Shown: positions 61,123 to 64,000 of the stretch, in pieces | Layout: every line of letters starts with the position of its first letter | Position numbering within the stretch: the first letter of the stretch is position 1 | DNA from: an uncultured Alphaproteobacteria bacterium | Lineage (GTDB): Bacteria; Pseudomonadota; Alphaproteobacteria; Micavibrionales; UBA1664 | Length of the DNA stretch: 64,000 bases | Reading direction: 5' to 3' | Assembly (NCBI GenBank): GCA_943789475.1 | Contig: CALSUG010000001.1 | Coordinates: forward strand, 62,001-126,000 | Made by a program: the position numbers and the translations under genes | Notes under the pieces: model-generated | Database searches by the model: none | Told to the model about the DNA's origin: nothing | The model's input: the letters and a program-made list of their open reading frames with translations, nothing else

Positions 61123-61344
61123 ATGACAATGTCACCAAATGAAATTCAAAAAGTACAAAAATATCTTCAACAAAAATTTGGACAACCTGACCTTATTTTG
61201 CGCACGCGTAAAACAAACGATTCTGTTGAAGTCCTTTTAAAAGGTGAATTCCTAGGTGTTTTGTACAAAGATGAAGACGAAGGTGAAACATCATACGACT
61301 TCAACATGGCGATCCTTGATATCGATTTAGACGAGGTTGCATAA
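61123..61344 (+). CDS. DUF3126 family protein
   Basis: Alphaproteobacterial small protein of 73 aa: 'EIQKVQKYLQQKFGQPDLIL', 'VEVLLKGEFLGVLYKDEDEG', 'SYDFNMAILDIDLDE'. AAAAGGAAAA precedes the ATG. Function unknown. Confidence 0.85.
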   Translation: MTMSPNEIQKVQKYLQQKFGQPDLILRTRKTNDSVEVLLKGEFLGVLYKDEDEGETSYDFNMAILDIDLDEVA

Positions 61345-61460: not shown

Positions 61461-62000
61461 ATGTGCGTATTAAAAAAAGGGGTCAACGTGAGGTTCAAAT
61501 TCTCCATCATCATAATTATGGCGGCTGCTGTTTTTTTAACAACGGCTCTAGTGAGCGATGCTGGGGCCCAACAAAGCAAACCAAAACTATCCCCCATCAT
61601 TTTGGATAAAGATACTAGCGACCCTGAGGCTACTAAAATCGTAAAAAAACTGACCGCCAGTCTTTTTAAAAACCAATCCATAAAAATTAGTGACATTTAC
61701 GCACAATATGTACCTTTAGAAAAAAAAGGTTCTCACGATAAATTCATAATCTCACATCTCTATGAACCTCCCCAAGGATGTTATGCTGCAGGTTGCCGTA
61801 CCGCTATATTCAAATCCTCTGGAAACAATAAATGGAAACTTGTTTTTTTAGCTTTTAGTGAAAATATTTGGTTTGATAAAACCTCTACAGAAACGAAAAT
61901 AGCCAATTTAATATTTAAAAGCTCAGATAGAAGAAAACCTATCGCTGTTTGGATGTGGAATGGTGAAAAATATGAGTTAATTAAGGGAAAATATGAATAA
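61461..62000 (+). CDS. Small exported protein with FG-GAP/WxWNG-type fold (cluster gene 1)
   Basis: Start at 61461 is supported by GGAAAGG upstream; a GTG at 61488 with GGGG upstream would still leave the signal peptide intact (hydrophobic 'FSIIIIMAAAVFLTTALVS', cleavage after 'DAGA'). Mature region shows 'GCYAAGCRTAIFKSSGNNKW' (two Cys) and ends 'IAVWMWNGEKYELIKG', a pattern found in beta-propeller-blade-like secreted proteins. The protein at 63385 shares the layout. Overlaps the lysozyme-like gene by eight bases. Function unknown. Confidence 0.65.
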   Translation: MCVLKKGVNVRFKFSIIIIMAAAVFLTTALVSDAGAQQSKPKLSPIILDKDTSDPEATKIVKKLTASLFKNQSIKISDIYAQYVPLEKKGSHDKFIISHLYEPPQGCYAAGCRTAIFKSSGNNKWKLVFLAFSENIWFDKTSTETKIANLIFKSSDRRKPIAVWMWNGEKYELIKGKYE

Positions 62001-63378
62001 AAAACTTTTATCACTTTTTTTTACAATCTCTTTATTAACTTTTGGTTCCGCAGAAACACGCGCAAGCAGCTGTTTATCTGGTGTAGATTGTAACTCATCA
62101 CTGTCTGGCGCTGCCGGAGAACAATGTAGTATGAGCGCATGGGTGGATGCTTTAATTGGAATGGAAAGTGGCGACAACTATGGAGCAGAGGCTCCAAACA
62201 CATCTGCGGCAGGACGATACCAGTTTATTAACGGAACCAGATCAACTATTGGTAGCAACTACGGCCTCCCCTGTTCTGGAGGAAGTGAAGGAAGTGCAGA
62301 ATACAATGCTTTCTTAAATTGCCCTGGATTACAAGATCAATATTTTCTTGCACTTGTCGAAGAAAACACTTCTATTTTACAAAGTCAATGTAATCAATAT
62401 TGCGGTCAAACCCGTGATGGTGTTGAAGTGACAATGTCAGGATTACTTGCTATGGCACACAACGTAGGGCCTGGCTGCGCACAACAATGGGCTGCCGGTG
62501 GGCGAGCAAATATGACACACGATATTGGAGGAACACAACCCTGTCACGATGCCAATGGTACAGATCCCGTGCAGCATTACGCTGCAGATATGGGAGGATT
62601 TGATGTTGCTGGCGCTGGACAAGATGGAACATGTGGACAAGGAACCGCTCACCCCAATGCCGTCCCCTATCAAAATCACCTCCTTGGCTGTGACACAGCT
62701 GTACTAGATCAAAACAAAACAATTGTTGATGCGATGAATGAACGTGACATGCAAGTTGCTAAATCTATGATTACTCAACCTGCATCCATTGCACAAACAA
62801 CATGTACAGATCAACATATTCAAACACAATCTGCCGCAGGTGGTATTTTGTCCAATCTTCCAGGTGGAAATATTAGTGAAACCATGGGGCCGTTAATTGA
62901 ACAACCCTTCATTAAAAATTTAACTTCTAATTTCATGAGTGCAAATCCTTTAGGAAGCTTACAATCCATGATCAACAACAGTTACGCTCAAGTGACGGAA
63001 CAGTTTAACACCATGATGAGCGGATTAAGCGGTGGTCTCTTAGGTGGACTTGGCGGTGGCGGAGCTGGTGATACATCTGGGGGATGCGATATGATGAATG
63101 AATCATGGTTACTATCCCAATGCATCCAAATGCCTAAATTCCCATCTGTTAACGATATTTTGAATGGAGCCATGAACGAAGTCACGGGCGCCGTAACAGA
63201 TCTCATCAATTCACCTTTCAAGGCCTTAGATCAAGTCTGTCAGGGAATGTCCGATAAATTGGGCGATTTCAGCAGTAAGGCAGAAAACATTTTTGAGGAT
63301 GCGGTAAGCAGTGCCACATCACCAATCACAGATAGCCTAAATCAAGCAACAGGCACAATCACGGATATAGGAAACTAG
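61993..63378 (+). CDS. Exported Cys-rich lysozyme/transglycosylase-like protein (cluster gene 2)
   Basis: Signal peptide (about residues 1-25, ending 'ETRA'). Residues of about 40-200 resemble a lysozyme-like or T4SS VirB1-type domain: 'MSAWVDALIGMESGDNYGAE' (possible catalytic Glu), 'SAAGRYQFINGTR', 'GLLAMAHNVGPGCAQQWAAG', with more than a dozen Cys suggesting several disulfides. The C-terminal 200 residues are Gly/Asn/Ser/Ala-rich and amphipathic ('SGGLLGGLGGGGAG', 'DAVSSATSPITDSLNQATG'). Peptidoglycan cleavage is inferred. It resembles components of conjugation-type secretion machines, but no secretion genes are visible here. Confidence 0.6.
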   Translation: MNKKLLSLFFTISLLTFGSAETRASSCLSGVDCNSSLSGAAGEQCSMSAWVDALIGMESGDNYGAEAPNTSAAGRYQFINGTRSTIGSNYGLPCSGGSEGSAEYNAFLNCPGLQDQYFLALVEENTSILQSQCNQYCGQTRDGVEVTMSGLLAMAHNVGPGCAQQWAAGGRANMTHDIGGTQPCHDANGTDPVQHYAADMGGFDVAGAGQDGTCGQGTAHPNAVPYQNHLLGCDTAVLDQNKTIVDAMNERDMQVAKSMITQPASIAQTTCTDQHIQTQSAAGGILSNLPGGNISETMGPLIEQPFIKNLTSNFMSANPLGSLQSMINNSYAQVTEQFNTMMSGLSGGLLGGLGGGGAGDTSGGCDMMNESWLLSQCIQMPKFPSVNDILNGAMNEVTGAVTDLINSPFKALDQVCQGMSDKLGDFSSKAENIFEDAVSSATSPITDSLNQATGTITDIGN

Positions 63379-63384
63379 ATAAAA

Positions 63385-63864
63385 ATGAAAAAATATAAAT
63401 TTATTTTAAGTCTTATTTGCGCAACCTCCTTGTTCGTTGGTATTAATGCACATTCTCAAGATATCAAGATGGTAGAATTCACAACACAGCCGTCAACAGT
63501 ATTAAAAAAAGCTATTCGTAAAACACTTAAAAACAAAATCGATAAATTCTACAAAGAGTATCAATACATCCCCTACCTACAATACGGTTTCGTTGATTTA
63601 AATTCCGATCGTAAAAATGAAATCGTTGTTCGATTTGCAGAAGAATACGAATTTAGAGACCGTCACAACAATATAGACACACATGTGTTCGCACAAACAT
63701 CAAAGGGATTGGTTCAGATACTAGAAACACAAGCCTTTTCAATTGGTATTGGCCCACGTGATCATACTGCTCTTAATCAAATATATGCCTATAAGGGTAA
63801 ATCGCAACGTCGATATGAACGGTTTGGTTGGGATGGAAAACGGGAGTACAAAAAAACAAAATGA
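63385..63864 (+). CDS. Small exported protein related to cluster gene 1 (cluster gene 3)
   Basis: Signal peptide to about residue 24 ('INAHS'), then 'YLQYGFVDLNSDRKNEIVVR', a calcium-binding-like DxNxDxxxE stretch typical of FG-GAP/VCBS-like blades, and an end 'YERFGWDGKREYKKTK' reminiscent of the WNG/WDG ending of the 61461 protein. Six bases after the lysozyme-like gene and overlapping the next start as ATGA, so all are probably one operon. Confidence 0.6.
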   Translation: MKKYKFILSLICATSLFVGINAHSQDIKMVEFTTQPSTVLKKAIRKTLKNKIDKFYKEYQYIPYLQYGFVDLNSDRKNEIVVRFAEEYEFRDRHNNIDTHVFAQTSKGLVQILETQAFSIGIGPRDHTALNQIYAYKGKSQRRYERFGWDGKREYKKTK

Positions 63865-64000
63865 TAAATACCTCTAAAAAAATACTATCCTTATTTTTTA
63901 TTACAGCACTTGTCATTGCCGATGTAGCGCTAGCATCCTCTCTTGTCGGAAACCCCACAGGAAACCACCGTGAAACTAGCCCATTCGGCTGGAGATCATC
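63861..64000 (+). CDS. Exported M23-type peptidase, N-terminal fragment (cluster gene 4)
   Basis: Signal peptide (about residues 1-25, ending 'DVALA') followed by 'NHRETSPFGWRS', which resembles the SPFGWR start of lysostaphin/M23 LytM-type peptidase domains. The gene continues beyond base 64000. It begins inside the stop of the preceding gene (ATGA). A second peptidoglycan hydrolase beside the lysozyme-like protein would fit a cell-wall-targeting cluster. Confidence 0.6.
   Translation, partial: MINTSKKILSLFFITALVIADVALASSLVGNPTGNHRETSPFGWRS

Follow-up and report, generated by a model that had tools for sequence, protein, structure and literature searches.

Two genes for putative peptidoglycan hydrolases, each preceded by a gene for a small exported protein, lie at the end of the window, that is, the whole stretch of 64,000 nucleotides analysed here (G000:C1:62001-126000, from a genome, G000, of 1.97 Mb). 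The question raised by this locus is at what the two wall-cutting enzymes are aimed and what the small proteins, called P3 and P4 below, do beside them. The features are as follows; neighbour names without a Pfam call rest on sequence recognition.

61123..61344, + strand: DUF3126 gene, the upstream neighbour (Pfam E 1.3e-26)
61461..62000, + strand: P3, an exported protein of ~180 aa, by gene order the partner of the lysozyme-type hydrolase (ORF with a signal-like N-terminus; no Pfam family)
61993..63378, + strand: SLT/lysozyme-like hydrolase, 461 aa, exported, with a Cys-containing tail
62068..62676, + strand: SLT/lysozyme-like catalytic domain (from homologue alignment and an order-wide profile search)
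62677..63375, + strand: tail domain of the SLT-like hydrolase (C-x37-C ... C-x11-C ... C; predicted helical)
63385..63864, + strand: P4, an exported, P3-related protein of 159 aa (N-terminal helices, then a beta meander)
63861..65213, + strand, of which the window holds 63861..64000: M23 protein, 450 aa (M23 domain and the shared tail)

As the first-pass annotation had described, the genes of these four exported proteins are packed closely together, and the cluster indeed runs off the window: the M23 gene ends at 65213 (G000:C1:127213; full ORF, L003:8862-10214). By ORF coordinates the last 8 nt of P3 lie within the SLT-like gene, 6 nt lie between the latter and P4, and the P4 stop and the M23 start share an ATGA. 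Since the start and stop codons of the four genes overlap or are no more than 6 nt apart, a single coupled transcript of the unit is likely. A hydrophobic signal-like segment can be read at the N-terminus of all four proteins; P3 may instead begin at the GTG codon at 61488, which is in frame and follows AAGGGG. A scan for promoters and terminators performed no better than shuffles, and PADLOC gave no match. Upstream of P3 are thrS, an ArsC-like gene and the DUF3126 gene, which also flanks the locus in relatives and is conserved there in the order. Most loci have the arrangement plsC-like, DUF3126, P4, tail protein, tail protein, waaA, and in most of the order the locus is found between DUF3126 and waaA.

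Lytic transglycosylases are typical components of secretion and conjugation machines, and the wall-penetrating part of such a machine had been one of the two readings proposed at first. The genes beyond the M23 gene, however, are waaA, lpxK, a lauroyl acyltransferase gene and a glutathione-reductase-like (gor-like) gene, ordinary lipid A/LPS genes, so the machine reading is unsupported. Downstream genes of an unrelated pathway had been named beforehand as a ground for rejection. No secretion genes adjoin the locus, a VirB4-type ATPase (the one family tested) was not found in G000, and neither P3 against plasmids nor a tail in tblastn against plasmids and phages gave a match. Furthermore, a type III or IV system was not in evidence in Micavibrio aeruginosavorus ARL-13 according to its genome paper (PMC3189940). 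A secretion or conjugation machine is thus a highly improbable explanation.

What, then, are the two enzymes? The first has no Pfam match to an SLT or lysozyme family; it shares similarity with the tail lysozymes of phages (31% identity, E 3e-8) and, at a weak level, with the phage transglycosylase 3bkh (E 0.009). A catalytic-type Glu and a G-[RK]-Y-Q-F motif are kept across eight homologues, in which E33 and G49-Y51-Q52-F53 (alignment numbering) are invariant, as expected of the SLT/lysozyme core. The enzyme is thus like the KZ144-type lytic transglycosylase (3bkh) and phage tail lysozymes in its catalytic domain and differs from them in carrying an order-specific tail and in having P3 encoded beside it. 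The long Gly-rich tail of the initial description is a domain found on both hydrolases. The second enzyme has an M23 domain (PF01551, E 2.3e-11; 44.2 bits, above the curated cut-off of 28.7), and the M23-type start seen at the window's edge is thereby borne out by the full gene. Its active-site set is incomplete: HLGVD (HxxxD), YSHL (the central His) and the first His of HxH are present, but HLDY replaces HxH, so that the last His, which is His in all seven compared relatives, is Asp. The Asp of HLDY may still bind zinc. By profile the protein belongs to the M23 fold family, from whose usual members this Asp and the shared tail set it apart; its enzyme activity is uncertain because of the replaced His.

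The C-terminal ~230 residues of both hydrolases are one and the same domain. At the DNA level the tail of the SLT-like gene and that of the M23 gene (G000:C1:126513-127213) are 94% identical over 705 bp, with identity near 100% for about 540 bp and then, abruptly, about 60%. Neither Pfam (74 tails searched) nor a PDB profile search gave a match, and the structure model is all-helical with low confidence (pLDDT 66). Profile matches of the Gly-rich tail to CoV_S2 and tape-measure families (E 0.002-0.07) were set aside as driven by composition. Across the order C-x37-C is present in 73 of 74 tail rows and C-x11-C in 72 of 74, against averages of 7 and 8 rows after shuffling. The tail occurs in 120 of the 142 genomes of the window's order and in none of the 333 genomes sampled from the rest of the class (the class sample comprised 337 genomes, and the four with a tail all belong to this order), and it appears from these searches to be specific to the order. 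In the scan of genome contigs the window's own tail found nothing as a query, and tails of family f4 gave matches. The order contains Micavibrio aeruginosavorus, and several of the named tail loci are from Micavibrio sp. Two proteins of 1009 and 1053 aa (L087:7779-10808 and L089:2027-5188) have the tail domain interrupted by an insertion of ~700 residues, and in genome G016 a CHAP-domain protein (L084:6980-8167; PF05257, E 1e-8) adjoins a tail protein.

In cellulosomes, enzymes with different catalytic domains from one genome end in a common module, the dockerin. The two hydrolases are similar in that different catalytic domains carry a common terminal module, but unlike dockerins the tail has no Pfam match and no cohesin-like partner was identified. 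The tail probably serves to target both enzymes to a single shared partner.

In five related genomes the tails evolve in concert, because tails within a genome resemble each other at least as much as they do the tails of other species: identity is 92% in G000, 82% in G002, 46% in G003, 84% in G005 and 68% in G006 within the genome, and 16-46% between genomes. G003 is the weakest case, yet its two tails cluster together in the tree. Catalytic domains, unlike tails, group by type; the SLT domain of the window is 61% identical to that of G001 and 51% to that of G003, whereas the tails are only 34-35% identical. Such near-identical tails might be nothing more than a recent duplication or a neutral gene conversion of neighbours without any function, since neighbouring repeats convert readily and the identical block in the window stops abruptly. 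This explanation is improbable: the pattern is shown by five genomes; in one of them, G005, some 64 kb separate the two copies, and their differences fall mainly at the third position of codons (11/7/58 for the three positions); and the Cys spacing is fixed order-wide. In family f4 the two tail proteins of each locus form distinct groups (33% identity within a locus and, for the second copy, 52% between loci); therefore homogenisation belongs to the window's family and not to the order as a whole. That the tails evolve in concert suggests a common, fast-changing binding partner.

The small proteins are related to each other, as had been noticed at first (hhalign 96%, E 2.9e-9), and their placement before hydrolases recurs in relatives, so the pairing is not chance. 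In nine genomes (G000, G001, G002, G003, G005, G006, G007, G050 and G430) a P3 homologue immediately precedes the gene of an SLT-type hydrolase, as it does in all eight genomes with SLT matches at E<1e-50 in the order-wide profile search. In G050 and G430 the P3-preceded hydrolase has no tail; therefore P3 tracks the cutting domain. The G050 enzyme (L036:7788-9485) has a polysaccharide lyase 14-like C-terminus instead of the tail. Beside SLT ORFs of the distant family f3 are ORFs with weak similarity to P3 (E about 1e-4); these SLT ORFs include large SLT-bearing proteins of about 600-1200 aa (L176-L191), usually with the P3-like ORF downstream. In G036, G057 and G087, P3-like lipoprotein ORFs have no adjacent SLT gene, and the wider P3 family is therefore not confined to the role of a hydrolase partner. 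A recurring exported family with an 'AHKDYHPS' motif (paralogues of 429-985 aa, no Pfam family, no match in a plasmid search) adjoins a tail protein in G050 (L098:4882-11902) and large SLT-bearing proteins in other genomes (L187-L195).

For P4 the picture is different. Within the window's family, f1, P4 is present with M23 in G000, G002 and G005, and in G001, G003 and G006 there is neither P4 at the locus nor M23, with the tails retained; hydrolase fusions are gained or lost between close relatives. SLT-tail fusions are found in family f1 and M23 fusions in several families of the order. In other families, 31 of the 33 P4 loci fetched have as the next gene one for a tail protein in which no M23 domain was recognised, and in f4 P4 adjoins M23-less tail proteins in most loci; in those loci P4 is therefore not an M23 inhibitor, and there it may bind the tail. 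The proposal that the locus encodes hydrolases with cognate exported partners is supported for P3 and the lysozyme-type enzyme, even without a tail, and is weakened in its strict form for P4 and M23. Homologues without hydrolases, which had also been named beforehand as a ground for rejection, do occur for P4 and tail proteins; they count against the machine reading and weaken the idea that P4 inhibits M23, whereas the P3 pairing is untouched. Gene order gives good support for P3 as the cognate partner of the lysozyme-type domain and weaker support for P4 as that of M23.

The AlphaFold model of P4 consists of helices and a beta meander (pLDDT 87.7), and a fold search of it against PDB and BFVD gave no significant match and none to any known inhibitor; matches to DDB1 were scattered and at chance level. 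Pfam over 34 P4 proteins gave nothing meaningful. A DxNxDGxxE-type loop that recalls calcium-binding repeats is conserved in the P4 family (DLNSDRKNE in the window). This loop, the translation of P3 and P4 just ahead of their partners and the occurrence of P4 beside tail proteins without a hydrolase domain would all suit chaperones of folding or export, or else activators that may depend on calcium, instead of inhibitors. The retention of P3 with tail-less lysozyme-type enzymes makes it a partner of the cutting domain, which inhibitor and chaperone fit alike, and is not decisive; we regard the chaperone or activator role as rather unlikely.

An inhibitor role is preferred for P3 and P4 by analogy with the predatory Bdellovibrio, in which the ankyrin self-protection protein Bd3460 inhibits the DD-endopeptidase of the adjacent gene (PMC4686830). 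As with Bd3459/Bd3460 (PMC4686830), the unit in the window places an exported wall hydrolase and a small exported partner side by side, and P3 and P4 share with Bd3460 both the adjacency to a wall hydrolase and the export. The systems differ in several respects: P3 and P4 have no ankyrin repeats by Pfam, and the P4 model is helix and beta meander; the partner gene is upstream in the window and downstream in Bdellovibrio; and, compared with Bd3459, the hydrolases here belong to the SLT and M23 types and share a tail. The synteny of Bd3459/Bd3460 has been reported to be missing from related epibiotic strains (PMC4686830).

The explanation favoured here, tentatively, since it falls a little short of being probable, is that of a pair of hydrolases aimed by their tails, each with a cognate exported inhibitor, P3 or P4. 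Two exported peptidoglycan hydrolases that differ in their cutting domain (lysozyme/transglycosylase-like and M23 endopeptidase-type) would be docked by the same order-specific tail on one common target, a receptor or a structure either of the cell envelope or of the contact between predator and prey. The gene for P3 or P4 precedes its hydrolase gene and is probably translationally coupled to it, and its product would bind the cognate hydrolase and block its activity in the periplasm of the producing cell until the enzyme is delivered. We infer the binding, the inhibition, the docking and the use against the wall of another cell; a use in predation is suggested only by membership of the order. 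Polymorphic toxins have an N-terminal constant delivery part, a C-terminal toxin and a downstream immunity gene. The locus resembles them in combining a constant module, swappable effector domains and adjacent small proteins, but its polarity is reversed, with the constant part C-terminal, the effector N-terminal and the partner gene upstream, so it does not have the polymorphic toxin layout.

The same enzymes could also serve the cell itself, the tail siting P3- or P4-regulated hydrolases on its own envelope for division, shape or a surface structure, with none used against other cells. In favour of a housekeeping role are the place of the locus, which most of the order keeps between DUF3126 and waaA, and the near universality of tail proteins (120/142), and there is a precedent in that Bdellovibrio also uses a wall hydrolase for the curvature of its own cell (PMC8938487). 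Quick divergence of the tails across species together with homogenisation within genomes is unusual for a housekeeping enzyme, and hydrolase fusions appear and disappear among close relatives; we consider this explanation unlikely.

Returning to hydrolases aimed by their tails and restrained by P3 and P4, a more specific and doubtful version is that of an undescribed system of the Micavibrio order, in which a fast-diversifying Cys-containing tail, homogenised within each genome, would dock interchangeable wall-cutters at the predator-prey junction, each with a periplasmic inhibitor of a new family (P3/P4). If true, the P3/P4 system would be the epibiotic counterpart of the self-protection of Bdellovibrio. 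We found no account in the literature of how Micavibrio opens the walls of its prey and spares its own, and an undescribed exported domain present order-wide, with fused wall hydrolases and cognate partners, offers concrete candidate genes.

Elsewhere on the contig, about 20-25 kb past the window, a Cas1 homologue (PF01867, E 6.4e-40) is located ~2 kb from an ORF for a family-B DNA polymerase (L004:9796-15324). Terminal inverted repeats were not clear at this region, which adjoins P2-like prophage genes and is casposon-like in its content.
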